DNA of 23,423 bases, from positions 1 to 23,423 of the IMG/VR virus record IMGVR_UViG_3300025647_000283. One strand, given 5' to 3'. The position numbers and the translations under genes were made by a program. This document shows positions 2,264 through 21,175 of the stretch, piece by piece (positions within the stretch are counted from its first letter, which is position 1; each line of letters begins with the position of its first letter). The DNA comes from a virus. The notes below the pieces were generated by a model. The model was not told the DNA's origin and made no database searches. It saw only the letters and a list, made by a program, of their open reading frames with translations.

Positions 2264-2682
2264 TGGCTAGAAAGAAAGAGGATAAGATAAAACCTATCCC
2301 GCCGGTTGGTCGGTTTGGTGGTGCGCGTGTGTTGCAGCGCCGGATTGGCCGGTCGGAGACTTTGGCTCAGAATAAAGAGGCTGTTGCGACTGAGCTGATT
2401 GCGATGGGTACGGCTCGTATGACTGACATTATTGATCTTCACACTGGTCAGGTTAAGCCGCTAGATGAGATCCCTTCTGAAGCATTGGCTGCGATCAAGA
2501 AGGTGACTGTTGGCCAGTACGGCACAACGATTGAGATGTTTGACAAGGTGAGCGTTCTGCGCATTCTGGCTAAGGCCAGTGGCTTGCTCGATGTAGAGAA
2601 GAACGTGGACAAGCCTTCGATCATTGGGATCAACATGAAGGGTCCAGAGATCACCACAACATATGAGGCTGATGATGACTGA
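2263..2682 (+). CDS. terS: Terminase small subunit
   Basis: A 139-aa protein directly upstream of and overlapping the terminase large subunit. The C-terminal half (KKVTVGQYGTTIEMFDKVSV, then LRILAKASGLLDVEKN, about residues 76-118) is the pattern found in small terminases of podoviruses and related phages, where a 'VGKYG...E..DK..AL..L.k..Gl' segment forms the oligomerisation core. The N-terminus is basic (MARKKEDKIK), fitting recognition of packaging-site DNA. The family assembles into a ring that selects viral DNA and stimulates the large subunit. It is longer than T7 gp18 (89 aa). The start overlaps the preceding stop, so it is probably co-translated with the SSB-tip protein. Confidence 0.85.
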   Translation: MARKKEDKIKPIPPVGRFGGARVLQRRIGRSETLAQNKEAVATELIAMGTARMTDIIDLHTGQVKPLDEIPSEALAAIKKVTVGQYGTTIEMFDKVSVLRILAKASGLLDVEKNVDKPSIIGINMKGPEITTTYEADDD

Positions 2683-4198
2683 TCTCCCCAGCATGAACTT
2701 GGATTTCTCTAAGTCTGCTACGGTCTGGAAGTTTTTACACGATAAGTCTTTTGTTCGCGGCCTGATGGGTCCGGTGGGATCGGGCAAGTCATACGGCTGT
2801 GCTGCTGAGATTATGTTAAAAGCTGTTCAACAAAAGCCTTCTCCGCGTGACGGCATTCGGTATTCCCGGTTTGTAATCGTGCGCAACACCTATCCAGAGC
2901 TTAGGACAACTACAATTAAGACCTGGCAGGAGCTATTCCCGGAAGATGTATGGGGTCAGATGCGCTGGCAACCGCCTATTACCCACCATCTTAAACTCCC
3001 CAGCAGAGATAATGCCCCTGGTATTGACTGTGAGGTTATATTCATGGCCCTTTCTACGCCCCAAGATGTGCGTAAGCTGCTGTCATTGGAGCTAACTGGT
3101 GCGTGGGTGAATGAGGCTAGAGAGCTACCAAAGGCTGTGATCGATGGTTTGACCCACCGCGTTGGCCGTTATCCTACCAAATCCGATGGTGGTGCGTCCT
3201 GGTACGGGATTATCATGGATACTAACCCGCCCGATGCGGATCACTGGTGGCATGAGCTGTCAGAGAAGAATCCTATCGGTGGCCGGTTCCCGTGGAAGTT
3301 CTTTCGTCAGCCAGGTGGTGTCTTGGAGGTGTCTGCCAAGGATCTACCAGAGAACCCGGAAGCAAATGGTTTTGTATTTTCCGGTGGCAAGTGGTGGATG
3401 GTTAATCCTTCTGCGGAGAATAAGGTGCATTTGCCTGATGGTTACTATGAGCAACTTCTCGGCGGAAAGAATGCTGACTGGATCAGGTGCTATGCAGAGG
3501 GCAAGTTTACCTTCGTGCAGGAAGGCAGGCCGGTTTGGCCGGAGTATGACGATGAAATGATGTCTGCGGATGTGCAGTATGATCCGCAATACCCGCTACA
3601 GATCGGCGTTGACTTTGGTTTAACACCGGCGGCTATCTTTGGGCAGCGAACATCTGGCGGCGCGTGGAAGATCCTCGATGAGCTTGTGACGTTTGACATG
3701 GGGCTTGAACGCTTTGGGCAGGAGTTGATAGGCAAGATCGCTGCAAGCTTCAACAAAGCAGAGGTGCAGATCTGGGGAGACCCTGCTGGGAACAAGCGTG
3801 ACGAGATCTATGAGGTTACAGCCTTCGATCACTTGCAGTCTATTGGGTTTCGCGCGCAGCCGACAGATAGCAATGCTTTCAATGTAAGGCGTGAGGCTGC
3901 TGCGGCTCCTATGAACCGGCTGGTTGGTGGCAAACCTGGTCTTCTCGTTAGCAAAAAGTGCTTGAGGCTGCGGAAATCTCTGAGTGGCGGCTATTTCTTT
4001 AAGCGTGTTTCTATGGGCGCTGGGCAGGATCGGTTTAAAGATGCGCCGGTGAAGAATGAACACTCTCACTGCGGGGATGCGTTTGGATATCTTATGCTCG
4101 GTGGCGGTGAGCAGCGCAGATTGCGGCGCGGAACCTATGGCGGAAGCTTTGCGGGTGGGCAAACATTCAGCGCAAGCACAGATTTCGAGATCTTCTAA
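2675..4198 (+). CDS. terL: Terminase large subunit (packaging ATPase and nuclease)
   Basis: About 507 aa; the motor that pumps DNA into the prohead and cuts it. Counting from the ATG at 2675: Walker A GPVGSGKS at 32-39; Walker B-like strand GAWVNEAR with the catalytic Glu at 147 (an Asn sits where Asp is usual); RVGRYP and MDTNPPDADHWW are motifs of this podovirus TerL subfamily; RNase H-like nuclease Asp residues lie in GVDFG (313), WGDPAG (369) and HCGDAF (468). An in-frame ATG at 2663 would give 511 aa, but a GAGG at 2665-2668 is well placed for 2675. The start overlaps terS by eight bases. T7 gp19, 586 aa, is the functional counterpart. The stop overlaps the next start (TAATG). Confidence 0.95.
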   Translation: MTDLPSMNLDFSKSATVWKFLHDKSFVRGLMGPVGSGKSYGCAAEIMLKAVQQKPSPRDGIRYSRFVIVRNTYPELRTTTIKTWQELFPEDVWGQMRWQPPITHHLKLPSRDNAPGIDCEVIFMALSTPQDVRKLLSLELTGAWVNEARELPKAVIDGLTHRVGRYPTKSDGGASWYGIIMDTNPPDADHWWHELSEKNPIGGRFPWKFFRQPGGVLEVSAKDLPENPEANGFVFSGGKWWMVNPSAENKVHLPDGYYEQLLGGKNADWIRCYAEGKFTFVQEGRPVWPEYDDEMMSADVQYDPQYPLQIGVDFGLTPAAIFGQRTSGGAWKILDELVTFDMGLERFGQELIGKIAASFNKAEVQIWGDPAGNKRDEIYEVTAFDHLQSIGFRAQPTDSNAFNVRREAAAAPMNRLVGGKPGLLVSKKCLRLRKSLSGGYFFKRVSMGAGQDRFKDAPVKNEHSHCGDAFGYLMLGGGEQRRLRRGTYGGSFAGGQTFSASTDFEIF

Positions 4199-5715: not shown

Positions 5716-7278
5716 ATGGCTCGGCTAGACGTAAGAGAGATCATGGAGCGTGAGGCCAAGGCCCAATCCCGCAAGGATCAATGGCGTACTATCTATGAGG
5801 ATTGCTACGAGTTTGCTCTGCCGCAGCGCAATATGTATGATGGAAACTATGAGGGTAACACCGCCGGTCAAAAGAAGATGGGCCGTGTGTTCGACTCCAC
5901 AGCTATTTCAGCGACTCAGCGTTTCGCTAACCGCATACAGGCTGGCTTGTTTCCACCTCAGAAGCAATGGTGTCGCCTAGAGGCTGGCACTGGCATCCCA
6001 AGAGAACAACAGCCACAGGCTCAAGCTGCGCTTGATGCGTACACTGAACGGATGTTTGAGGTAATGCGCCAGACTAACTTTGATCTGGCTATGGGCGAGT
6101 TCCTTCTGGATCTCTGTGTGGGTACTGCCGTAATGATGGTGACACCTGGTGATGAGGCAACTCCGATCCGTTTTACACCGATCCCTCAGTATCTCGTTTC
6201 GATTGAAGAAGGCACATTCGGCAATGTCGATAATGTTTATCGCAAGCTAAGAATGAAGGCTGAAGCGATACCGCAAGAGTTCCCTGATGCTGAAATGACG
6301 CCGGAATTGGTAGATGCGATATCACGATCACCATCTAAAGAGATCGATCTTATGGATGCTGTGATCTATGATTACGAAAGAGCGATATATTGCTATCATG
6401 TTATCTGGCCTGGTAAGCGGCAAGATCTGGTCTACCGCACCATGAAGTCTTCGCCATTTATCGTTGCGCGTTACATGAAGGTTGCCGGTGAGATCTATGG
6501 CCGTGGCCCACTGGTGACTGCGATTGCTGACATCAAGACGCTAAACAAGACCGTTGAGTTAGTTTTGAAGAATGCTTCCTTGTCGATCTCTGGCGTATAT
6601 ACTGCTGCTGACGATGGCGTTCTTAACCCTCAGAACGTAAAGATCCAGCCTGGTGCAATCATTGGTGTGGCTCGTAACGGTGGCGCACAGGGTCCGTCCC
6701 TGTCTCCTCTGCCCCGTGCCGGTGACTTTAACACAAGCCAGATCGTTATGAATGATCTGCGCATGAGCATTAAGAAGATCTTGATGGATGATACGTTGCC
6801 GCCTGACAATATGTCAGCCCGGTCTGCGACTGAGATTGCTGAAAGATCCCGTGAGCTTGCTTCTAATCTTGGTTCTGCGTTTGGTCGATTGATTGATGAA
6901 ACTATGATCCCGCTGGTATCGCGCATTCTCTATGTAATGGACCAGGCTGGCTACATCGATCTGCCGCTAAAGGTCAACGGTGTAGAGGTAAAGGTCACGC
7001 CGGTGGCTCCTTTGGCTCAGGCTCAGAAGTTACAAGAGGTGAACGATATCGTGCAGTTTATGCAGATTGCCAACTCTCTAGGCCCACAGGGTCAGATGGC
7101 ATTGTCGATCCCACGGATTACAGCATTCATTGCCGATAAGATGAACATCAAACAGGACTTGCTTACCACAGCGGAAGAGCAAGAAATGATGATGCAACAG
7201 ATGCAGGCGCAAGCAATGGCCGAACAAGGGCCGCCGACTGCTAATGATGGTGGAGCAACAATGGAGGCTATGCAATGA
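5716..7278 (+). CDS. Portal protein (head-tail connector, T7 gp8-like)
   Basis: A 520-aa protein very close in length to T7 gp8 (536 aa). The N-terminus reads as the podovirus connector family: DQWRTIYEDCYEFALPQRN, then VFDSTAISATQRFANRIQAG and LFPPQKQWCRLE (about residues 20-92). Later blocks include YGRGPLVTAIADIKTLNKT (about 254-272), the crown-side NMSARSATEIAERSRELASN helix and a Gln/Met-rich C-terminus (MMMQQMQAQAMAEQ). The dodecameric ring is the DNA entry pore, docks the terminase during packaging, and then receives the tail tubular protein. The order portal, Bbp19-like, scaffold, capsid is standard. The stop overlaps the next start (ATGA). Confidence 0.95.
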   Translation: MARLDVREIMEREAKAQSRKDQWRTIYEDCYEFALPQRNMYDGNYEGNTAGQKKMGRVFDSTAISATQRFANRIQAGLFPPQKQWCRLEAGTGIPREQQPQAQAALDAYTERMFEVMRQTNFDLAMGEFLLDLCVGTAVMMVTPGDEATPIRFTPIPQYLVSIEEGTFGNVDNVYRKLRMKAEAIPQEFPDAEMTPELVDAISRSPSKEIDLMDAVIYDYERAIYCYHVIWPGKRQDLVYRTMKSSPFIVARYMKVAGEIYGRGPLVTAIADIKTLNKTVELVLKNASLSISGVYTAADDGVLNPQNVKIQPGAIIGVARNGGAQGPSLSPLPRAGDFNTSQIVMNDLRMSIKKILMDDTLPPDNMSARSATEIAERSRELASNLGSAFGRLIDETMIPLVSRILYVMDQAGYIDLPLKVNGVEVKVTPVAPLAQAQKLQEVNDIVQFMQIANSLGPQGQMALSIPRITAFIADKMNIKQDLLTTAEEQEMMMQQMQAQAMAEQGPPTANDGGATMEAMQ

Positions 7279-8406: not shown

Positions 8407-8451
8407 AACCTCGGATAACGGAAGCGTTTAATTGAAACGCAAAAGGAGGTT
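8407..8451 (+). promoter_or_regulatory. Ribosome-binding site of the capsid gene with candidate anti-Shine-Dalgarno pairing
   Basis: AAGGAGG (8443-8449) is the strongest ribosome-binding site in the window and ends nine bases before the ATG at 8459. AACCTC (8407-8412) is perfectly complementary to GAGGTT (8446-8451) and could sequester it. Between the two lies a perfect hairpin, GCGTTT (8424-8429) with AAACGC (8435-8440) and loop AATTG. The AACCT stretch could instead sit in the loop of CCG (8403-8405) with CGG (8412-8414), which would free the site. This gives a plausible on/off pair; it is inference from pairing only. Confidence 0.42.
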
Positions 8452-8458
8452 TTTGCAA

Positions 8459-9292
8459 ATGGCGATTAACGTCTCAACCGCGTTTGTTGATCTTTTCGAT
8501 TCTGAGGTCAAACAAGCGTATCAAGCCGAATCTGTGCTTCGTGGCACAATGAGGACCCGCACCGGCGTTGCCGGTAATACTGTTAAGTTCCCAACAATCG
8601 GTAAAGGTGTAGCTACGCTCCGCGTACCACAAACCGATGTTACTCCACTTAACGTCACATACGGCCAAGTAACTGCGACAATGGAAGACTACATTGCAGC
8701 AGAATACTCAGACATCTTCCAACAGTCCCACATCAACTTTGATGAGCGTTCTGAATTGGTACAGGTTGTATCTAAGTCTATTGCTCGTCGCATGGACCAG
8801 ATCATGATCGATGCTCTGAACGCGGCCACTGGCACATCTACTGTTGCAACAACAATCGGTGGTGCTGGCACAAACATGAACATCGAAAAGCTCCGCGCTA
8901 CTGCGAAAGCTATGAATGAGAAGAACGTACCTTCTGAAGGCCGTAACTTGCTCATGCACGCTTCTCAGCTAGATGCTTTGCTCGGTGAAACTGAAATCAC
9001 AAGCCAAGACTTTGCTTCTGTCAAAGCTCTTGTCCAAGGTGAGATCAACACATTCATGGGCTTCAACATCTTGACAATGGGCGACCGTGACGAAGGCGGT
9101 ATTCCTAAGCCTTCTACTCGTACCTGCTTTGCCTGGCACAAAGATTCGATGGGCTATGCTGAGTCGATGGCTCAGAAAACCGAAGTCAACTATGTCCCAG
9201 AAAAGACATCGTTCTTGGTTAGCTCCATGTTCTCTGCTGGTTCCGTCGCAATCGACGGCGAAGGCATTGTCAAAATTTCTTGCACTGAATAA
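8459..9292 (+). CDS. Major capsid protein
   Basis: A 278-aa protein following the scaffold gene. It begins MAINVSTAFVDLFDSEVKQ and has the HK97-fold order of podovirus capsids: an N-terminal arm, VRLE-like beta strands (NTVKFPTIGKGVATLRVPQ), a long spine-like helix (ERSELVQVVSKSIARRMDQI, about 97-116, just before DALNAATG), and a C-terminal domain (GRNLLMHASQLDALLG through GINTFMGFNI-type strands and a final SVAIDGEG). It is shorter than T7 gp10A (345 aa), as in many marine podoviruses. A TTG at 8432 is in frame but would add a basic stretch and place the strong ribosome-binding site inside the gene, so the ATG at 8459 is chosen. Codon use favours C-ending codons, consistent with high expression. 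Confidence 0.93.
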   Translation: MAINVSTAFVDLFDSEVKQAYQAESVLRGTMRTRTGVAGNTVKFPTIGKGVATLRVPQTDVTPLNVTYGQVTATMEDYIAAEYSDIFQQSHINFDERSELVQVVSKSIARRMDQIMIDALNAATGTSTVATTIGGAGTNMNIEKLRATAKAMNEKNVPSEGRNLLMHASQLDALLGETEITSQDFASVKALVQGEINTFMGFNILTMGDRDEGGIPKPSTRTCFAWHKDSMGYAESMAQKTEVNYVPEKTSFLVSSMFSAGSVAIDGEGIVKISCTE

Positions 9293-10215: not shown

Positions 10216-12414
10216 ATGCGGATTATGCAGTTCCAAACGAACTTCTCGGTTGGTGAGCTTGATCCGCTTATCCGCGCTCGTACCGACTTGCAGCAATATC
10301 AGAATGCTCTTGAGGAAGCTACAAATGTAATCATTCAGCCGCAGGGTGGGTTCAAGCGCCGGGATGGTACGAAGTTTATCTATGACTTTGGCTCAAGTTT
10401 TACTGACTTCAAAGTAATCCCCTTTGAGTTTAGCGTTGATGATAGTTACCTCTTGGTGTTTGTCACTCAGAGGATCTATGTGTTTAAGGCTGGTGTCTTG
10501 CAGACGAATATCAACGGATCTGGCAATGACTATATTACAGCAACCGATATCACTACCGCTATGCTGGATGATATCAACTATACCCAGGCGGTTGATACGC
10601 TCATTCTCTGCCATGAGGATCTTCAGACTAAGAGACTTGTGCGAAACGGTGACACAAGCTGGACGTTGGAGAATCTGCCTCTGACAAACCTTCCTCAGTA
10701 TGCTTATGCCTTTGACACGCATCAGCCAGACTTTACGATCACGCCCAGCGCCACAACTGGAAACATTACGATCACAGCTTCGTCAATGACTACTGACAAC
10801 GGTACGGCGCAAGCGGGTGGAGCGAATACAATTACCTTGAAGGCGGCGTCTAGTTACAGCACTGACGATCAGCCAAATGGTATGTTCATTACTTTAACTT
10901 CCGGCACAGGCTCCGGTCAGACTCGGCACGTTGAGGACTATGTAGCTTCCACCAAGGTTCTGACTGTCTATCCCGCATGGGATACGGCTCCCGATAACAC
11001 CACTGGCTATAAGGTTTCTGCATTTGCAGAGGCCGCTGTCGGTGAATACGCTCAAGTCACAAGCACTTTTGGTCGCGCTCGGTATGTAGAGTATGTTTCT
11101 GACACGGTAATGAAGGCCGTTACGGAGGTTGATTTCTTTGACACCGATGCTGTTACTGCTGGTTTCTGGGAAAGCGAACATGGTTACGAAGATGTTTGGT
11201 CCAGCACTCGCGGCTGGCCTCGGTCTGCTGCATTCCATGAGGGCCGGTTGTATTTTGGTGGATCTAAGTCTCGGCCAAATACTATCTGGGGTTCTGGTGT
11301 AATCAATTACTTTGATTTCAACGTCGGTACTGGACTTGACGATGAGAGCGTTGAGGCAACAATCAACACTAATCAGCTCAATACTATCGTCAACTTGTTC
11401 TCTGGCAACGACTTTCGGATCTTCACAACCGGTGGTGAGTTTGTAATCCTGCAAGGAACCAATGATCCAATCACACCGTCTAGCTTCTTTGTCAGGCCAC
11501 AGACACGGCTAGGAGCAAAGTCTGGTATTCCGATTGAAGAGCTAAACGGCGCGTCAATCTTTATTCAGCGCCAAGGTAAATCTATCAACGTCTTCCAGTT
11601 TGGCGATACTACAGCATCCTATCAGGTACAGAACATATCGGCACTAAGCTCTCACTTGCTAAAGAACCCTGTGGATATGGCCGCGCGTAGGGCTGCATCT
11701 ACAGATGAATCGGATCGCCTGTTTGTGGTCAACGGCACTGACGGATCGATGGCGGTTTACTCTATCTTGGTTGGTCAGAATGTTATTGCTCCAAGCCGGT
11801 TCACAACAGACGGTGAGTTTATAGCTGTGGGCGTTGAGGTTGCAGACGTTTATGTAATCGTTAAGAGGACGATTGATGGCGCTGACAACTATATGCTGGA
11901 AAAGTTTGACCCAGATCTTACGCTAGATAGCGCTAAGGAGGGCGGAGCGGCGTCCTCAGTGACGTTACAGCATCTTGAGGGGGAGACAGTCCAGATCATT
12001 AGAGATGGCATCATAGAGCCAGAGCAGACGGTCCCTGGCTCTCCCTACACGGTTACGTTTGCTTCGGCAGCTACGTCTAGCTACCAGGTTGGTTTGAATT
12101 ACACAATCACGGCTAGAACGATGCCTGCGGAGCCGGTGCTATCTTCTGGATCTGTGCAGGGCTTTAAGAAGCGTATTATTCAAGTTGATGCTATTGTGAA
12201 TAGCACCAAGGACATGACGATTAACGGAAAGCAGGTCTCGTTTAGGAACTTTGGCGAAAATGTACTTGATTCACCGGTTGAGCCTTTCACTGGCATAAAA
12301 ACTATGCACGGTTTGCTGGGATATAGCGGAACGGGGCAGATTACGATCAGCCAGAATGTTCCATTGGAAATGATTGTTCTCGGTCTTGAGTACCGTTTAA
12401 GCGTGGGGAATTGA
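10216..12414 (+). CDS. Tail tubular protein B (nozzle, T7 gp12-like)
   Basis: A 732-aa protein, near T7 gp12 (794 aa). The N-terminus (FQTNFSVGELDPLIRARTDL, then NVIIQPQGGFKRRDGTKFIY, about residues 6-56) is the most conserved mark of the nozzle family. Later blocks include WGSGVINYFDFNVG and FTTGGEFVILQG, and a beta-rich C-terminal half. Six copies form the tail nozzle, which carries the fibres and closes the tail channel. The start at 10216 is preferred, since it follows the upstream stop by two bases with GTGAG nearby; an in-frame ATG at 10225 is possible. The stop is followed at once by the gp14-like gene. Confidence 0.93.
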   Translation: MRIMQFQTNFSVGELDPLIRARTDLQQYQNALEEATNVIIQPQGGFKRRDGTKFIYDFGSSFTDFKVIPFEFSVDDSYLLVFVTQRIYVFKAGVLQTNINGSGNDYITATDITTAMLDDINYTQAVDTLILCHEDLQTKRLVRNGDTSWTLENLPLTNLPQYAYAFDTHQPDFTITPSATTGNITITASSMTTDNGTAQAGGANTITLKAASSYSTDDQPNGMFITLTSGTGSGQTRHVEDYVASTKVLTVYPAWDTAPDNTTGYKVSAFAEAAVGEYAQVTSTFGRARYVEYVSDTVMKAVTEVDFFDTDAVTAGFWESEHGYEDVWSSTRGWPRSAAFHEGRLYFGGSKSRPNTIWGSGVINYFDFNVGTGLDDESVEATINTNQLNTIVNLFSGNDFRIFTTGGEFVILQGTNDPITPSSFFVRPQTRLGAKSGIPIEELNGASIFIQRQGKSINVFQFGDTTASYQVQNISALSSHLLKNPVDMAARRAASTDESDRLFVVNGTDGSMAVYSILVGQNVIAPSRFTTDGEFIAVGVEVADVYVIVKRTIDGADNYMLEKFDPDLTLDSAKEGGAASSVTLQHLEGETVQIIRDGIIEPEQTVPGSPYTVTFASAATSSYQVGLNYTITARTMPAEPVLSSGSVQGFKKRIIQVDAIVNSTKDMTINGKQVSFRNFGENVLDSPVEPFTGIKTMHGLLGYSGTGQITISQNVPLEMIVLGLEYRLSVGN

Positions 12415-12415
12415 T

Positions 12416-12874
12416 ATGGCTGGTTTAATGGCAACGGGTGGTTTCCAGTTATTTTCAGCAGGAGTTTCAGCTCTTGGTCAAATTTCTGCGGGGGCTGCTC
12501 AAAAGCGTCAATACCAAATGCAAGCAGAGCAAGCAGAGCTTCGTGGCCGTTCTGAGGCCATTGCCTATAAGCAAAAGGGTGCAGATGCTTTGCGCAATTT
12601 AAATGAAACGCTTGCTGCAATTATATCTCGATCTGCTGCCGGTGGTGTTGATCCTACCTCTGGATCTGCTGCAACGCTTCAGCAATATGCTTTATCTGAG
12701 GGCGCTAGAGAGAAACAAATTGCTCAAGACAACGCTATTATGGCTCTCGGCCAGGCAAGCACTCAGGCTGGAATTTATCAATCCGCTGGACGCGCAGCGC
12801 AATTATCGTCTTATGCATCCGCCGCCGGTACTCTCGGCCAAGGTGCATATCGGTACGGACAATTAGCACCATAG
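12416..12874 (+). CDS. Internal virion protein, T7 gp14-like ejection protein
   Basis: A 152-aa protein with a hydrophobic Gly/Ala-rich N-terminus (FQLFSAGVSALGQISAGAAQ, about residues 10-29) and a helical body (QAELRGRSEAIAYKQKGADA, then LAAIISRSAAGGVDPTSGSA). This body pattern is common to small ejection proteins placed between the nozzle and the large internal proteins, the place of T7 gp14 (196 aa), which inserts into the outer membrane during ejection. The C-terminus is again Ala/Gly/Ser-rich. GGGGAA sits just before the start. Function is by position plus pattern. Confidence 0.8.
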   Translation: MAGLMATGGFQLFSAGVSALGQISAGAAQKRQYQMQAEQAELRGRSEAIAYKQKGADALRNLNETLAAIISRSAAGGVDPTSGSAATLQQYALSEGAREKQIAQDNAIMALGQASTQAGIYQSAGRAAQLSSYASAAGTLGQGAYRYGQLAP

Positions 12875-12882
12875 GTTAGAAC

Positions 12883-15426
12883 ATGGCAATCCTTCCAAGA
12901 TATCAGCGCACCGGTCTACAGACCCGTCAACCACAGCAGATGGATTTTGCCGCTACGCGCGAACAGGCAAGGTTGGTCCAGACTATTTCTCAGCAAGTTG
13001 ATCGTATGTCCGACTTTGCTTTCAGGCAGGCTTCTCAGGCAGCGGAAATCCGTGGGCAGGAGCGTGTGCGCGAAGAAGGTGCTTTGCCTACTCTGGCCGC
13101 ATTAGATGAAGCCGGTGGACCTACTACAATAGCGGAACGTGCAGCATATGCTCTCGGCAGTCGCGTGGCTGTTGCTGAGATACAGAACGAAGCTGAAGTC
13201 GAGATCATGCGGATCTTGAACGATGCTGAAAGAAATGAAACTCCATTCACCGCTGTTCAGGCGCAACTTGCAGATGTGACGGATGGATATTCTGCTTCAC
13301 TTAGCACATTAGACCCAGAATCGGCATTGGTCTTAAAGGAACGGCTTTCCGGTTCATCTATCAAAGCTTCCGAAAGATATTCTAATTGGTATGTTAATCT
13401 GCAAGCCGCAAAGGCCAAGGCAAAAGTAAACGATGCTGCGGATCGTCAGCTTGAAGTTATTTTGCAAGGGGCAATTATTCCTGGAGCAAACAAGATAACT
13501 ATACAGCAGTCATTGGCTTCTTCTATTGAGTTGCTTTCAGGATTGGGCGCTTCCGAAAAACAACTAAAAGCTTTTGAGGAAAGGGCTTATAGCGCTGCCT
13601 TTAAGGAAAATGCGCTTTACAAATTCAATGTAGGTTCTCTTGATGAGAAGGCCCGTTTTCTTGAGCAAATGAAGACAAAGCCTATGCCGGGAATGTCTCT
13701 TGAGCAAACACAATCTTTTAGGAAATCACTTACAGCAGATTACAATGCTCAGGTTAGAGTGACGCAGGGCGAGGCTGCTGCAATTGTTTCTGATGCAAAT
13801 GAGCAAGCTCGGATCTTAGCCTTGGGTGGTATGCCATCTCAAAAGCAAGTATTAACATTAATGGAACGAGCTGAAGCCGCTGGAGAATACGGCGTTGGCG
13901 CTAGGGATGCTGTCGGCGTCCTTCAGTTCAACATGGAAAAAGCTGAAGCATTTAGGAAAATGACTCCAGAAGATCTGGCCGCAGAGGTGCAAGCTTTACG
14001 TCAGGGTCTTGAGGGCATTGGCGAAGCTGGCGTTGATACTCTTCTAGAAGCTAACACATTAAAAGTAGCCGAGGCATATTTAAGTTCAGCTCAACAGGCT
14101 ATGGCAAAGGCCGAAACAGCTCGTAAAAAAGAGTATGAACCTATTGTTAATCAATTAACAGAACAGGTTAATAATTTTCAAGCTTTGGTGGATTCCGGTC
14201 GAGATGTAGAAGCCAGTGATATTGCCGATCTAATGGAGGCGATAGCTACTGTACCAGTAGATTTATGGGGCGATCTTCCAGATAAAGTAATAGCCTTAAA
14301 CATTACAAGTAATACTGTTGAAGCCATAAGGGGAATGACACCGCCAGAGGCCGCTGGATATCTGAGATCTCTTGAAGGTGGCATTGATAGGTTTGGCGGA
14401 GAGGGTATTGATACCCCTGTAGAAATTCAAACATATGACTTGGCAAAAAAGATGCTGTCAGGAATGGAAGCTGAACTAAAGAAAGATCCATTGTCATATG
14501 CTATGCGTGTTGGTCTTACTGATTCCAACGGTAATGAAATTGAAATCACGCCGATTAACTTTACAGATCCAGATGCAACTTTGGAAACAATGAGAAAGCG
14601 CATTGATGATGCAACAATTGTTTCTGCTAAGTATTCAACGCCGGTTACATACTTTACGCCACAAGAAAGATCTATGCTGGCAGAAGTAATCGATGGATCT
14701 GATCGATCACAGAAAATGTTTTTCTTGGGTGCTATTGTAGATGGTGGCGGTCAAGCTGCCCCAGATATGCTTGCAGAAATATCTAAGACTGCTCCAGAGT
14801 TTGCCGGTGTTGGCGCTTTGGTTGTAAGTGAAAGAATGGATGCGGCTAACATGGCATTGCGCGGCATGGACTCAATAAAGGCCGGGTTTAAGCCTATAGA
14901 CTTCACGCCTTCTAATACTGATATACCGTTCAATGCTAAAACAAGTGAGGCTCTTCGCTATCAGCCAAATGCAATTGGCATTACTCGTGATGTTGCTACA
15001 TCTATCTATGCAGACATGGCCAGAAACAAAGACCAGTTTGATGAAGATCTTTGGAATAATGCAATTGACATGGCTCTTGGAGCTGATGGTTTTGGCCGTG
15101 GTGGCATTCAAGAAGTTCGCGGTGTTAATACATACTTGCCGCCAGAATTAAATGTGGATGATATCGAGGTGGCCCTAAAGGCAATTACACCGGAAAATAT
15201 TTTTGTTGCCTCTGGTGGCCAAGTTCTTACAGATGAGTATGCAACAGACATTTCTGGTCGTGGAATGTTTAGTAGGGACAATAACTATAAGCCAGTATCA
15301 TATGGTGGTAATAATTTCATTTTAGCATATGGTGATCCTAGCATTGGTCAGCCAATATATGTTTTTGATGAAGCCGGTGAGTTGCTTGTCTTTGATATGT
15401 TAAAGCTAGTTGAGGCTACTAAATGA
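12883..15426 (+). CDS. Large internal virion (ejection) protein, T7 gp15 position
   Basis: An 847-aa, overwhelmingly helical protein in the place of T7 gp15 (747 aa). The N-terminal 110 residues are Gln/Arg/Ala-rich (QTISQQVDRMSDFAFRQASQ). The segment FTAVQAQLADVTDGYSASLS and repeated acidic/Ala helices recall ejection proteins of other podoviruses. A small mixed segment lies around residue 590 (TYFTPQERSMLAEVIDG). I see no lytic transglycosylase or amidase motif. It would be stored around the portal inside the head and leave with the DNA to line the periplasmic channel; this is inferred from gene order. The stop overlaps the next start (ATGA, 15423-15426). Confidence 0.8.
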   Translation: MAILPRYQRTGLQTRQPQQMDFAATREQARLVQTISQQVDRMSDFAFRQASQAAEIRGQERVREEGALPTLAALDEAGGPTTIAERAAYALGSRVAVAEIQNEAEVEIMRILNDAERNETPFTAVQAQLADVTDGYSASLSTLDPESALVLKERLSGSSIKASERYSNWYVNLQAAKAKAKVNDAADRQLEVILQGAIIPGANKITIQQSLASSIELLSGLGASEKQLKAFEERAYSAAFKENALYKFNVGSLDEKARFLEQMKTKPMPGMSLEQTQSFRKSLTADYNAQVRVTQGEAAAIVSDANEQARILALGGMPSQKQVLTLMERAEAAGEYGVGARDAVGVLQFNMEKAEAFRKMTPEDLAAEVQALRQGLEGIGEAGVDTLLEANTLKVAEAYLSSAQQAMAKAETARKKEYEPIVNQLTEQVNNFQALVDSGRDVEASDIADLMEAIATVPVDLWGDLPDKVIALNITSNTVEAIRGMTPPEAAGYLRSLEGGIDRFGGEGIDTPVEIQTYDLAKKMLSGMEAELKKDPLSYAMRVGLTDSNGNEIEITPINFTDPDATLETMRKRIDDATIVSAKYSTPVTYFTPQERSMLAEVIDGSDRSQKMFFLGAIVDGGGQAAPDMLAEISKTAPEFAGVGALVVSERMDAANMALRGMDSIKAGFKPIDFTPSNTDIPFNAKTSEALRYQPNAIGITRDVATSIYADMARNKDQFDEDLWNNAIDMALGADGFGRGGIQEVRGVNTYLPPELNVDDIEVALKAITPENIFVASGGQVLTDEYATDISGRGMFSRDNNYKPVSYGGNNFILAYGDPSIGQPIYVFDEAGELLVFDMLKLVEATK

Positions 15427-18400
15427 ACTTTGACAAGCCAGATAGATTAGACGTTCTTCCTCAGCAGGGTCTTACCGCCCCGCCTGGTACGTTAGCAGAA
15501 AATCTGACGACTGCATTTGATGTTGCTCGGTTCAATGGCGGGTCTGGCAGCAACAGTAAAGCGTTTACAATGCTTGAGATATGGGGTCCGATTGTAGATC
15601 TTGCCAACGAAAATGGCGGAGATTTTGAAAACCCTGGTATGTATCTCGCTGGAAGTCTGTTTGATGCAAGTTCTCCTCGCCTTTATGAAAAGGTATCTCA
15701 GGATATTTATTCTTGGATGGCGCAAAACAAAGATACTCTTCCGCCAGAGTTGCAAGATATAACTCCTGATGTAATAAATCAGCGCACAAAGGATTTCGTT
15801 CAATCCAAAGAAAATGAATTAGCAGAGCTGGCAAGAACAAATCCCGACTTAGCTAGTGCTGCTGCTCGTTTTATCGGCTCTATGGGCACTGCTTTTGGCG
15901 ATCCAGTAACTCAAGCGACTATGCCGTTTGGTGGATGGTCTAAATCTCTTTGGAAGAATGTAATGCAGAACGCCGCAATAAATGCCGGTGCTGGTGCAAT
16001 TACTGAGGTTGATGTTAAAAAATGGTATGATGAGCTTGGCTTGGAATATGGCTATGATGACTTTTTAAAGAATGTAGCCATTCAAGGCGCATTCGGTGCA
16101 GCATTGCCTGTGGCTGGTCGCGGCATACAGATGACCGCAGCTCAAGCCAAGAAGGGCTGGGAAGTATTGTCGGGAAAAGGCCGCAAGCCTATTAGCCCAG
16201 AGGATCAAGCCCTGGTTGATGTCCTTGAAGCACAAGAAGAAGTAGTTGCTAGTAATCCGCTAGAAACGCCTCAAGATCCTAATGTGGCAGAGTTTGAGCA
16301 TCAGAGCCGCTTAACTAAGGCTCAGGCTGCAATAGAAAATAATATGGCTCCTAATATAACTCCAGAGCCTAACGCCCCTATAAAGCCTGCTGTAGCCGCA
16401 GAAGCGGCAGATAATCTTGACGGTGTTATATTCAAATACAATCCTGATGAAATTGGAATTGATGCCAAGACTTTTCAGTTTAAATCCGGCGGTGATGAGT
16501 TCGGCGTGACTGAACGCTTGCAAGATGCAGTATGGGACAAGAACCTTGCTGGCACTATTACTGTTTATGAATATGCAGATGGTCGTGTTGTCGTTTCTGA
16601 CGGGCATCAAAGATTGGGTTTGGCTAAACGTATTAAAGCTCAAGATCCTTCCCAGGAAATAACTCTGTACGCATACAAGGACCGTGAAGTTGATGGCATT
16701 TCACCAGCGGAATCACGAGTTTCTTCAGCAATAAAAAATATCGCTAATGCCCCCAAAGATAGCTATGATCCTCAACTTGTTATTGATGCTGCTAAGGTTT
16801 TAAGAGAAGCAACAAACAATCCTAATATAAGTGTTGATATAATTAGCAGTCTGCCTCCTAGATCGCAGGTTGTTAAGCAAGCACAGGGCATGATGCTTTT
16901 AGGAGATGATGCTTTTATGGCAATAATAAACGGCGTTATTCCTCCAAATTACGCTGCTATTGTTGGAAATCTTATTGATAATCCTGAGTTGCAATCAGCC
17001 GCTATATCAGTTTTAGCAAAAGCAAGCCCAGGCAATGCCTTTGAAGCAGAGGCTATCATTCGACAAGTTAGAGAATCAGATTTTGAGCAAGTGAAGCAAA
17101 TAGATTTATTTGGCGAACAGATAGTAACTGAGAGCTATTTTGTAGAACGTGCAAAGATCTTAGATAAAGCGTACAAAGAGCTGCGTAAAGATAAAGCGGC
17201 ATTTGAAACATTGGTTCGCAACTCAGATCGCCTGGAAGCAGAAGGCAACGTCTTAGTTAAGGAAGCAAACAAACGAAAGGCAGATACAGATGGCCAAACA
17301 ATCGCGCTCCTCCAAACGCTTGCAAACCGCAAAGGGCCGCTCTCAGATGCCCTCAACCAAGCAGCAAGAACAGCCAGAGACACAAACAGCTATGTCGAAG
17401 CAACCAGAGGCTTCCTCGATTCTGTCAGAGGAGCAATTGAATCGGGCGATTTCGAAAGGCTATCTTCTGGCGACATTGGACGCGCTGTCGATGGTACGCC
17501 GCAGATCAGCAGATCTGAGATTGAAAGAGAGCCAGCCCTTGAGGGATTCGACGAGCCAACTGGGATAGCATCAGAACGTCAGGCCGATCAACTTATTAAT
17601 GATATGTTTGGTGCTGACGAATCGGTTGTTACACAGCGACTTGACGTTTCTCCAATAGAAGAAGACATAGTAGCGGTTGAAGACATTAAGATGCCAATTA
17701 ATGATAATCTTCCACCGGATCAAATTCGCGCACAAGTTCAAGCTTTGACTAAAGAAAATACGCCAATAATTAAAGATTTAATTAAACGTATCGATGAAAA
17801 ATTTGGTACTAAATCAGGCGATAACATTAAAGATCTGGCTAAGGTTATACAAAAGGCAAACAGGCCATCAATTTTAGCTAAAAAGCCTTGGCATAAAGTA
17901 TCTCACATTAGAGATAGTTATAGATTCAAAACCGTTATTAAAGACTTTAGAGATGTGCCTGCTATATTTGATGAGCTTTTAGCTAGTGGCATTAGCCTTG
18001 TTAAAGTTGATACTGCTAAACTATTTGATCCAAAGGAATGGGGATGGCGGATCATTGCGTTTGATTTAAGGATGCCAAACGGTCAATTAGTTGAATGGTA
18101 TTTGCCGATCAAAGAGCTTGAAGCTCAAAAGAAAGCTGAAGGGCATTTACTGTTTGAGGAATGGCGAAATAAAAGCCCCGAAGAAATTTCGGCACAGCAT
18201 AACGATTATATGGATACAATCCGCAGGAGCTTTGAAGGCTACGACAACGCTTTTCAATCTGCCTTGGATAGAATCGGAATATCCAGAGATGAGGCTGCGG
18301 CTTCTTGGGCAAGGGCTGAAAGCTCCATGCTAGATGCGGCTCGGAAGTCGCCTAGTTCGTCTGGCATTACTACGTCATCAGGTGTACGCGGAGCCGAAAC

Positions 18401-18716
18401 CCAGGTTCCGTCTAGGGTACGCATAACAGAAGAACCGGATTCGGTCCAAAGCATGACACGGGATGTGCCTTCTTCTACTAGGGCAAACTTAGGTGAAGTC
18501 ATAGATTCTACCTCCGATGTTAATTTAGATATCACTTTGGGCGAAGTCAAGACAAGTAATTTATTTGACGATATGGATCTTGAGGTTCCTTTAGGTGAGC
18601 GGATAGATCCCGAAACTGGTGATGTTCTCCCGGCGACTATGACGCTGCGAGATTTGAAGGCACAAATGGATCAAGAAGATGCCATGATTAACCGCTTGGA
18701 GTTCTGCACGATATGA
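15423..18716 (+). CDS. Polyvalent ejection protein with ParB-like and RelA/SpoT-like domains
   Basis: A 1097-aa protein. Residues about 130-235 are Ala/Gly-rich (SAAARFIGSMGTAFGDPV, AINAGAGAITEV, FGAALPVAGRG), like channel-forming ejection proteins. Residues about 336-455 form a ParB/Srx-type domain: FQFKSGG, ITVYEYADGRVVVSDGHQR with DGHQR at 393-397, then SRVSSAIKNIA. A charged helical region follows (about 560-680). Residues about 806-912 carry a RelA/SpoT-fold signature: KANRPSILAKK, HIRDSYRFKTVI (Asp831, Arg834), WGWRIIAFDL (Gly874, Arg876), GQLVEW (Glu891), and AEGHLLFEEWR (His908). The tail is Ser/Thr-rich and acidic. The mixture matches 'polyvalent' phage proteins that are injected with DNA and act against host defences or physiology; activity here is unproven. 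Both ends overlap neighbours by ATGA. Confidence 0.82.
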   Translation: MNFDKPDRLDVLPQQGLTAPPGTLAENLTTAFDVARFNGGSGSNSKAFTMLEIWGPIVDLANENGGDFENPGMYLAGSLFDASSPRLYEKVSQDIYSWMAQNKDTLPPELQDITPDVINQRTKDFVQSKENELAELARTNPDLASAAARFIGSMGTAFGDPVTQATMPFGGWSKSLWKNVMQNAAINAGAGAITEVDVKKWYDELGLEYGYDDFLKNVAIQGAFGAALPVAGRGIQMTAAQAKKGWEVLSGKGRKPISPEDQALVDVLEAQEEVVASNPLETPQDPNVAEFEHQSRLTKAQAAIENNMAPNITPEPNAPIKPAVAAEAADNLDGVIFKYNPDEIGIDAKTFQFKSGGDEFGVTERLQDAVWDKNLAGTITVYEYADGRVVVSDGHQRLGLAKRIKAQDPSQEITLYAYKDREVDGISPAESRVSSAIKNIANAPKDSYDPQLVIDAAKVLREATNNPNISVDIISSLPPRSQVVKQAQGMMLLGDDAFMAIINGVIPPNYAAIVGNLIDNPELQSAAISVLAKASPGNAFEAEAIIRQVRESDFEQVKQIDLFGEQIVTESYFVERAKILDKAYKELRKDKAAFETLVRNSDRLEAEGNVLVKEANKRKADTDGQTIALLQTLANRKGPLSDALNQAARTARDTNSYVEATRGFLDSVRGAIESGDFERLSSGDIGRAVDGTPQISRSEIEREPALEGFDEPTGIASERQADQLINDMFGADESVVTQRLDVSPIEEDIVAVEDIKMPINDNLPPDQIRAQVQALTKENTPIIKDLIKRIDEKFGTKSGDNIKDLAKVIQKANRPSILAKKPWHKVSHIRDSYRFKTVIKDFRDVPAIFDELLASGISLVKVDTAKLFDPKEWGWRIIAFDLRMPNGQLVEWYLPIKELEAQKKAEGHLLFEEWRNKSPEEISAQHNDYMDTIRRSFEGYDNAFQSALDRIGISRDEAAASWARAESSMLDAARKSPSSSGITTSSGVRGAETQVPSRVRITEEPDSVQSMTRDVPSSTRANLGEVIDSTSDVNLDITLGEVKTSNLFDDMDLEVPLGERIDPETGDVLPATMTLRDLKAQMDQEDAMINRLEFCTI

Positions 18717-21175
18717 CTTTTAAAAACTGTATCAATGAAGGCGTTGCAGAAGGCCAAATCACTCAGGAACAAGCTGACGAGATTACTGGCCTGTTTGATG
18801 AGCTTGAGGTTCAATACAATCGGCAAATGGGTGGAGCTGCTGCAACGGCGAAGGCTGCATCTGAAACATCTGTCGCAGCAAAGAAGATTGCTATTGAGCG
18901 AAAGCGCCGGGCTATGCTCCAGGCTACAACCTGGAAGAAGATTAACTATGATCTTCAAAATTACAAAACCGCTTTAGGTGCTCCTGACAAGAATAGAGCT
19001 GCCTTGGCTTTGTTTGAGCAAGATCAGACATCCAGGTTCCGAAGCATTGTCCAGGTGCAACAAGCTGTTCAGCGCAGCGCTACTCGAAAGATGGATGAGT
19101 TCTTGGCAACATTTCGCCGCAACATTGTCGGTGAAACAAGAAACAAGGCCCAATTGAATAATGTAGTTCGTGAAATCTTTGGCGAAGAAACCGGCGATGC
19201 TTCAGCTAGAGAAATGGCACAAGCCTGGAAATCTGCATCTGAATATCTGCGCACAAGATTTAATGCTGCCGGTGGCGCTATTGCTAAACGCTTTGATTGG
19301 GGTATGCCTCAGATCCACGATACTATGCGGGTTCGCCAATCTACATATGAGGAATGGCGGGACTTCATTAAGGCACGTTTAGATTTGACTAAGATGAAAG
19401 ACGAGCAAACAGGATTGCCGTTTTCAGATGGTAAGCTTGAGTTTGCTTTAAAGGATGCTTACGAGACGATCCGCACGGATGGTTTCAATAAGGTTAAGCC
19501 AGGAACGATGACCGGCAACAAGTCGTTTGCCATGCGCAATCAAGACCATCGTTTCTTTGTTTTTGAAACAGCAGATGGCTGGCTAGAGTATCAACAAAAA
19601 TTTGGCAATCCAAACCCCTTTGATGCAATGATGGGGCATATTGATATGATGTCACGCGATATTGCTATGATGGAAGTTCTTGGCCCTAATCCAAAGGCAA
19701 CGACTAATTTCATTAAGCAGACATTGCAGAAAGATGCTGCTGGAGATGCAAATGCCGAGCGTATAGCTAGACGTACCGGCGCTTCTGTTGATGCTCTTTA
19801 TTCAGCGGTCAGTGGGTCTATAAACGCTCCTGTTGACAGCAAGTTTGCATACACATTTGCTGGCATTCGTCAGGTGCTACAGTCGGCGCAGCTTGGCGGC
19901 GCGGCTATTGCTGCTACAACAGATATGAATTTCGGGCGCATTGCTAGATCTATGGTTGGTCTACCGCAAACCAAGATGCTGAAAAAGTATTTAGATTTTA
20001 TGACCCCTTTGAGCCTAGAGGAAAAAGGTCGCCTAGCTATTCGTTTGGGCTTAACTGCTGAAGGTTGGTCAACTCTCGCTGCTGCACAGATGCGATATGT
20101 TGGAGATCTGTCGGGTCCAGAAGTAACGCGCCGTATGGCCGACTTTGTTATGAGGGCTTCTTTGCTTTCTCCTTGGACAAATGCAGGTCGGTGGTCTTTC
20201 GGCATGGAGTTCTTAGGCAATCTAGCTGACAACTCTGGCAAGCAGTTCGATCAGCTAGATCCAATGATGCAGAAAACTCTCGATCATTATGGCATTGGGG
20301 CTGATAAGTGGGAGATTGTAAGAACAACCCCGCTCTATGAATATGAGGGCGCTTCGTTCCTAAGAGCTGAAGACATCGAGGCCCGTACCGATATACGCTC
20401 AGATTTAGCCCGTGATTTAGCAACCAATCTTTTAGCTATGGTTGAGACTGAAACCAATTTTGCCGTGCCTAGCAGCTCTCTCCGTGGCCGTACTGCGCTA
20501 ACAGGTGACACTCAACCAGGCACAATTGCCGGTGAGCTTACTCGGTCGTTTGCAATGTATAAGAATTTTGGTGTTACTCTGGTAAATACTCACATCATGC
20601 GTGGCTTGGCACAGCCAACACAAAGGGCAAAGGGTACTTACTTTGCAGATCTTTTAATCAGCACTACGTTGATGGGCGCTCTGGCAATGCAGCTAAAGGA
20701 AATGGCTAAGGGCCGTGATCCCCGTCCAATGGAAAGTCCTGAGTTCTGGGGCGCTGCTCTTCTCCAAGGTGGTGGCCTTGGCATCTATGGCGACTTCTTA
20801 TTCTCGGATGTAAACCGTTATGACCGGGGCTTGTCTGAAACCATTGCCGGTCCTGTTGTTGGGTTTGCTGATGATGTTCGCAAGCTAACGATCGGCAATG
20901 TAACTCAGGCCATCAAAGGTGAAGACACAAACATAAGCAGTGAGCTTATTAACTTTGCCGGTCGATATACTCCAGGATCTACGCTCTGGTACTCTCGTTT
21001 AGCACTGGAAAGAATGGTGCTGGATCAAGGCAAGCTATGGGCAGATCCAGACGCTAAAAGCAAAATGAAGCGCTTGGAATCCAAGTATAAACGCGAATAT
21101 GGACAAAACTACTGGTGGCGTCCTGGTAAAACCACGCCACAAAGGCCCCCAGAACTATCAAACGTGTTTGAGTAA
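18713..21175 (+). CDS. Large internal virion (ejection) protein, T7 gp16 position
   Basis: An 820-aa protein, the last of the ejection set. The N-terminal 110 residues are helical and basic (KKIAIERKRRAMLQ). Middle blocks include AKRFDWGMPQIHDTMRVRQS, FETADGWLEYQQKFGNPNPF and DAMMGHIDMMSRDIAMMEVL. A moderately hydrophobic part follows (IRQVLQSAQLGGAAIAAT). The C-terminal YFADLLISTTLMGALAMQLK, GRDPRPMESPEFW, LLQGGGLGIYGDFLFSD and AGPVVGFADD blocks form a pattern I know from large ejection proteins of many podoviruses and gene-transfer-like phages. No cell-wall hydrolase motif is seen, unlike T7 gp16 (1318 aa). It probably spans the inner membrane during DNA entry. The start overlaps the previous stop (ATGA). 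Confidence 0.82.
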   Translation: MTFKNCINEGVAEGQITQEQADEITGLFDELEVQYNRQMGGAAATAKAASETSVAAKKIAIERKRRAMLQATTWKKINYDLQNYKTALGAPDKNRAALALFEQDQTSRFRSIVQVQQAVQRSATRKMDEFLATFRRNIVGETRNKAQLNNVVREIFGEETGDASAREMAQAWKSASEYLRTRFNAAGGAIAKRFDWGMPQIHDTMRVRQSTYEEWRDFIKARLDLTKMKDEQTGLPFSDGKLEFALKDAYETIRTDGFNKVKPGTMTGNKSFAMRNQDHRFFVFETADGWLEYQQKFGNPNPFDAMMGHIDMMSRDIAMMEVLGPNPKATTNFIKQTLQKDAAGDANAERIARRTGASVDALYSAVSGSINAPVDSKFAYTFAGIRQVLQSAQLGGAAIAATTDMNFGRIARSMVGLPQTKMLKKYLDFMTPLSLEEKGRLAIRLGLTAEGWSTLAAAQMRYVGDLSGPEVTRRMADFVMRASLLSPWTNAGRWSFGMEFLGNLADNSGKQFDQLDPMMQKTLDHYGIGADKWEIVRTTPLYEYEGASFLRAEDIEARTDIRSDLARDLATNLLAMVETETNFAVPSSSLRGRTALTGDTQPGTIAGELTRSFAMYKNFGVTLVNTHIMRGLAQPTQRAKGTYFADLLISTTLMGALAMQLKEMAKGRDPRPMESPEFWGAALLQGGGLGIYGDFLFSDVNRYDRGLSETIAGPVVGFADDVRKLTIGNVTQAIKGEDTNISSELINFAGRYTPGSTLWYSRLALERMVLDQGKLWADPDAKSKMKRLESKYKREYGQNYWWRPGKTTPQRPPELSNVFE

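Follow-up and report, generated by a model that had tools for sequence, protein, structure and literature searches.

RelA/SpoT domains within injected polyvalent proteins of phages have been described before, with examples from spirochaete and epsilonproteobacterial (pro)phages and from MuF fusions, and host reprogramming has been proposed as their role (Iyer et al. 2017, PMC5512222), so the idea of an injected phage RelA/SpoT domain is not new. A second close system is Apk2, a phage virion-linked (p)ppApp toxin whose Syn2 motif is R-Y-T (R-x-T) and whose Syn3 motif is G-x-N, where RelA/SpoT enzymes use S-x-H to read guanine (PMC12226406). Further points of comparison include SAS1/RelQ (YjbM, 5ded) and SAS2/RelP (6ewz, 6fgk), which are free-standing (p)ppGpp makers, the toxin Tas1 (6ox6), and CapRel SJ46 and FaRel2, which serve in defence or toxin-antitoxin systems and have a zinc-finger antitoxin. 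The locus described here resembles the set of Iyer et al. in that a RelA/SpoT fold forms part of a large, presumably injected phage protein with several domains, and in that its relatives bear LPD38, LPD23, ART-PolyVal and InPase domains. What sets it apart, and is new, is a separate Pfam-invisible subfamily (below the PF04607 cut-off) in a T7-like virion gene order, with altered Syn motifs and consistent changes in the specificity residues. Also new is a clean cargo presence/absence pair with phage SI2.

The window, meaning the whole stretch of 23,423 bases that was analysed, is an IMG/VR virus record, and its contig is a 23.4-kb fragment. Its features are collected in Table 1. The genes run in the order terminase, portal, head, two tail proteins, internal virion protein, an 847-aa protein, the 1097-aa carrier and a further structural protein (phrog_684), and the carrier occupies the gp16 position within a T7-like gp14/gp15/gp16 order. 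These neighbours bear out the virion-protein setting given in the original prediction. In T7-like phages, the C-terminal part of gp16 is believed to extend into the host cytoplasm (PMC8954989). From the virion gene order we infer that the carrier is probably packaged and ejected with the DNA. For the 847-aa protein, no above-chance family match was found except phrog_3899 (E 0.007). Promoter and terminator scans of the window gave chance level only. Downstream, a plus-strand ORF at 21222-23423, open at the window end (734+ aa), has T/V/A/S-rich repeats and is tail-fibre-like; a minus-strand ORF at 21371-22504 was rejected as a gene, being antisense to this plus-strand ORF, which runs from 21222 to the window end.

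Table 1 Features of the window; residue numbers refer to the 1097-aa carrier.
Feature	Position	Strand	Basis
Terminase large subunit	2663..4198	+	phrog_2, E 2e-25
Portal / head-tail adaptor	5716..7278	+	phrog_332, E 2e-85
Major head protein	8432..9292	+	phrog_3437, E 2e-53
Tail protein (tubular B position)	10216..12414	+	phrog_376, E 8e-123
Internal virion protein (gp14 position)	12416..12874	+	phrog_418, E 1e-8
847-aa protein, gp15 position	12883..15426	+	gene order only
Carrier virion protein (ejection-type, polyvalent-type), 1097 aa	15423..18716	+	ORF
Conserved module, residues 315-712, ParB-like D-G-H-Q-R motif (393-397)	16365..17558	+	relatives, motif
RelA/SpoT-fold synthetase domain, residues 776-952	17748..18278	+	AlphaFold, Foldseek, VIA-align, hhalign
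Basic ATP-phosphate helix K803-x7-K811-x2-R814 (Syn1, first Arg missing)	17829..17864	+	45 sequences
Asp831 (Mg ligand position) and Arg834 (Asp+3)	17913..17924	+	invariant, 45 sequences
G-loop G874-W875-R876, aromatic expected to stack acceptor base	18042..18050	+	45 sequences; seed stretch
Asp881, family-specific invariant, acceptor-side strand	18063..18065	+	45 sequences
Glu891 (catalytic Glu position) and Tyr893 (for Gln of E-x-Q)	18093..18101	+	both invariant
H908-x3-E912-x2-R915, C-terminal helix	18144..18167	+	invariant, 45 sequences
C-terminal tail beyond cargo site	18585..18713	+	similar in SI2 (domain-less) and most relatives
Virion structural protein, directly downstream of carrier ORF	18713..21175	+	phrog_684, E 4e-184

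The sole family match of the carrier itself is phrog_10691, a family of 3925 positions, which aligns with residues 271-712 (E 3e-51). Within this region, the conserved module is common to phage SI2 (36%) and Ruegeria phage 45A6 (40%), and can also be seen, more weakly, in Prochlorococcus phages. Its ParB label is a motif reading only; Pfam ddrB-ParB does not match residues 315-712, and a PDB profile search with them gave chance matches only. The RelA/SpoT domain differs from Tas1 and Apk2 in being internal rather than C-terminal and in having neither MuF, for which a search of the carrier gave no match, nor PAAR on its carrier.

The original prediction had recognised by eye a RelA/SpoT signature over residues 806-912. 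This span does lie inside a real domain, but the true domain is wider (776-952), because the fold match covers model residues 1-177. The AlphaFold2 model of the domain, built with 36 aligned sequences, has a pLDDT of 91.2 and a pTM of 0.82 and, by Foldseek and VIA-align as well, is a mixed nucleotidyltransferase sheet with flanking helices. Searched against the PDB with Foldseek, it reached a best E of 4e-8, and 50 of the 50 among the matches listed are Rel or small alarmone synthetases. VIA-align superposed it on B. subtilis SAS1 (5ded_A) with Z 14.7 and rmsd 2.4 over 158 of 177 residues; other Rel-type structures followed (6fgk_A, Z 14.7; Tas1, Z 11.5; CapRel, Z 10.9 over 153 residues). Like SAS1 and SAS2, it has the fold over the whole domain and the phosphate-binding Lys/Lys/Arg, at a sequence identity of 12-18%. 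The best non-Rel folds were MenT1 (Z 9.3), DNA polymerase lambda (Z 8.9) and TENT (Z 8-9). These would be the closest models if the domain were some other nucleotidyltransferase of the pol-beta superfamily, for example one that nucleotidylates protein or RNA, but the gap to a Rel Z of 14.7 is wide, SAS coverage extends over the whole domain and the order of the Syn motifs is Rel-specific, and we consider this reading very improbable indeed. A viral structure library contains similar predicted folds, in phage proteins that bear the annotation RelA/SpoT, DdrB-like or ART-PolyVal-like. As modelled, the domain is almost certainly a complete RelA/SpoT-type synthetase fold, divergent in sequence yet complete in structure. 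AlphaFold, Foldseek, VIA-align and hhalign agree on the fold that had been claimed, and the RelA/SpoT match and the nucleotidyltransferase sheet, whose joint absence had been named beforehand as the refuting outcome, were both found.

Profile comparisons give the same fold from sequence. Against all PDB chains, the 36-sequence profile put RelP (two constructs) and YwaC at the top, with E ~0.009. With hhalign, a reference alignment of four SAS, CapRel and Bordetella phage PHB04 was matched at 96.5% and a score of 63.4, with D831 and E891 in register, where the maximum in 100 column permutations was 18.7. This signal comes largely through PHB04, and only sets that contain it are strong: PHB04 itself gives a probability of 96% (E 2e-9, 121 columns), the four SAS or CapRel alone give Prob 18-30 (SAS only, 30%), and a Tas1 fragment alone gives Prob 0.3. 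The Pfam model RelA_SpoT (PF04607) does not match the window domain even at E 10 and touches weakly 4 of 36 relatives (best E 0.0088); the PHB04 protein passes its cut-off (30.6 vs 27 bits). Nothing useful came from scanning the domain against PHROGs and NCBIfam, a single-sequence phmmer search of the PDB gave no match, and none of the Pfam LPD models matches the subfamily. Since the standard Pfam model misses the family, annotation pipelines overlook the domain.

The way the domain is kept and lost points to a cargo with a job of its own. In podovirus-type relatives it is 73-89% identical, compared with 25-59% for residues 1-270 (the near-identical copy L017 left aside). The dN is likewise 0.07-0.21 for the domain and 0.32-1.02 for residues 1-270 (L061, a MAG contig, left aside), in a comparison where dS is mostly saturated. 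By this computation the domain is under strong purifying selection, and no other part of the proteins compared is as well conserved. In contrast, the 792-aa homologue in phage SI2 (NC_023841.1; L062:3191-5569) shares residues 259-669 at 36%, together with a similar C-terminal tail, and has 0 of the 177 domain residues. Absent in SI2 and strongly kept elsewhere, the domain is dispensable for the virion protein. Its behaviour is that of an exchangeable cargo, placed in the C-terminal third of a virion protein of polyvalent type from a short-tailed phage.

Residue conservation was assessed in 45 sequences of 37-99% identity, 25 of which are <80% identical to one another. Across all 45, 24 domain positions are invariant, including K803, K811, R814, D831, R834, P870, G874, R876, N886, E891, H908, E912 and R915. 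Care must be taken with the stretches around PKEWGWR, LAKKPWH and MPNGQ, which served as search seeds and whose invariance is partly selected for; this bias does not touch K803, K811, D831, R834, E891, Y893, H908, E912 or R915. The residues named in the original prediction all lie where it had put them in the ORF (D831, R834, P870, G874, R876, N886-G887, E891, G907-H908, E912 and R915), and motifs that prove little when read by eye alone are here upheld by their invariance in 45 relatives. One mark needs correction: RPSILAKK is present at 814-821, but it is not the start of Syn1, which is K803.

The Syn1 motif reads N-x-K-x7-K-x2-R-P-S, with R-x-K-x7-K-x2-R-P-S as its CapRel counterpart. The Lys is retained and the first Arg is absent, position 801 being N, S, D or Y across the 45 sequences. 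The spacing of K803, K811 and R814 equals that of FaRel2 K66, K74 and R77, which bind ATP phosphates (PMC11782079). Glu891, which had been picked out as the candidate catalytic Glu, aligns with the Glu of PHB04 AELQIH and SAS AEIQIRT. Asp831 aligns with RelP D107, and Glu891 stands where RelP has E174, the Glu of E-I-Q; these two positions are known for their metal-binding and catalytic roles. Given the register and the match in fold, the catalytic residues are expected to cluster in space. In RelA/SpoT enzymes, the Tyr of the G-loop stacks the acceptor base; here the aligned position, 875 (G-Y-R in RelP and YwaC), is W in 43 of 45 sequences and F in 2. Asp881 has no counterpart in SAS, Tas1 or CapRel sequences. 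The C-terminal helix motif has counterparts in Tas1 (GHKYYEDWR) and PHB04 (GHEHYNVSR).

Changes at the R of R-x-K, the Y of the G-loop and the Q of E-x-Q could also mean that the fold is catalytically dead or repurposed, serving nucleotide binding only or as a structural spacer. Yet neither the two metal-binding acidic residues nor the K/K/R patch varies in the 45 sequences, the remaining protein is much less conserved than the domain, and the domain can be absent and is therefore structurally unneeded. We regard a dead fold as quite improbable, and predict that the domain is likely to be an active pyrophosphokinase.

The next question is what the domain would make. With fair confidence, a mononucleotide (alarmone) product is predicted. 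The original prediction had named (p)ppGpp first among its options, and a guanosine alarmone synthetase that triggers a stringent-like response would fit the best structural matches, SAS1 and SAS2, which are (p)ppGpp makers, and the profile matches, RelP and YwaC. The specificity residues do not support it. In SAS1 and SAS2, R-x-K, S-x-H, the G-loop Tyr and E-x-Q are intact, whereas in the phage domain they are changed: the guanine-reading S-x-H becomes I-x-A/G/P/S across the 45 sequences, the G-loop Tyr becomes Trp and the Gln after the Glu becomes Tyr. A guanosine product is given a low probability.

An adenosine-type product, (p)ppApp made in the manner of Apk or Tas1, is our leading guess, put forward tentatively. 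We lean this way because the first Syn1 Arg is missing and an Arg stands at Asp+3, as in Tas1 and PHB04 (both of which, read by eye, also appear to be without the first Syn1 Arg), because the R-Y-T Syn2 of Apk2 likewise has the Arg (Syn2 here is R-F-K), and because the tail motif GH-x3-E-x-W-R is as in Tas1. The lean is a slight one, because the donor-adenine Arg of FaRel2 is missing, the Gln of E-x-Q is replaced by Tyr, and Syn3, here I-x-A, is unlike that of RSH enzymes and is not the G-x-N of Apk2.

Alternatively, the domain could be a tRNA 3'-CCA pyrophosphokinase like FaRel2, PhRel2 or CapRel, blocking the charging of host tRNAs at infection and perhaps selecting tRNAs that the phage can spare. 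The basic helix K-x7-K-x2-R-P-S is close to that of CapRel SJ46, which shares the fold and was aligned as given above. However, the nearest folds are alarmone synthetases, and the Arg at Asp+3 and GH-x3-E-x-W-R are like Tas1 and unlike CapRel; CapRel SJ46 and FaRel2 have Gly at Asp+3 and Arg at Asp+5. The phage would also be harmed by a shutdown of translation on entry; neither a zinc-finger nor an antitoxin partner was seen, and no tRNA genes were found in the window. A tRNA target is thus doubtful, and we rate it as a long shot. It is also conceivable, though unlikely, that the altered pockets define a RelA/SpoT subfamily, brought in ready-made by the virion, that uses a new acceptor, so that the 3'-pyrophosphorylated nucleotide or RNA target would be a new one too. 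The residues behind this reading are the lost first Syn1 Arg, Arg834, Trp875, Asp881 and Tyr893, all but the Trp strictly fixed.

On balance we favour, as the probable overall reading, an injected, active 3'-pyrophosphokinase cargo with an alarmone-type product, adenosine somewhat ahead. In the sequence of events that we infer, the carrier protein of this marine phage would be packaged and enter the host alongside the DNA. The domain would bind Mg-ATP through K803, K811, R814, D831 and E891, the acceptor nucleotide would stack on W875, and pyrophosphate would be transferred from ATP to the acceptor 3'-OH. The product would be an alarmone-type nucleotide, (p)ppApp being somewhat likelier than the guanosine kind. 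Host nucleotides would be quickly drained or redirected, and host transcription damped before phage gene expression. Against this stands the lack of an evident immunity gene, although the toxin, if active, would also arise in the cell that produces the virions: no adjacent immunity or hydrolase gene was evident in the 23.4-kb fragment, unlike Apk2 loci, which have the HD hydrolase Aph1 downstream. An injected dose would call for no immunity gene in the target cell. If a virion brings its own nucleotide-signal enzyme, host physiology would be affected before phage genes are read, and such phages would encounter or forestall defences based on alarmones.

The family is widespread among uncultured phages, and the domain is small, well bounded and easily assayed. 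Successive IMG/VR scans found 14, then 44, then 58 distinct loci encoding it, at 37-99% identity. Among 84,980 species genomes it was found in one contig, in a MAG. This near absence from cellular genomes suggests that the carriers are mostly non-integrating phages, an indication that is only suggestive because the search used short peptide seeds. An HD_4 alarmone hydrolase was found in none of 33 viral contigs (fragments) with the domain, while 10 of 14 control genomes were positive.

Among named phages, the sole match was a weak one to Bordetella phage PHB04, whose protein ATI15652.1 is the closest named-phage sequence and adjoins the portal gene. Unlike the phage domain described here, it keeps E-x-Q and the G-loop Tyr. 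In PHB04 (MF663786.1; L016:2014-4279), this RelA_SpoT-domain protein, annotated as hypothetical, is followed by one small gene and then by a gene resembling HD_4 (p)ppNpp hydrolases; synthetase and hydrolase look like a virion-linked pair of the Apk2/Aph1 kind.

In other relatives the domain is found in proteins of ~3000 aa with LPD38, LPD23, ART-PolyVal, InPase, SNF2 and DarB-like regions, which are hallmarks of polyvalent proteins. For example, a 3293-aa protein (L057:2659-12537) has an inorganic pyrophosphatase domain (863-998) shortly before its RelA/SpoT-like module at 1115, and this pyrophosphatase might drive a pyrophosphate reaction forward or work against it.
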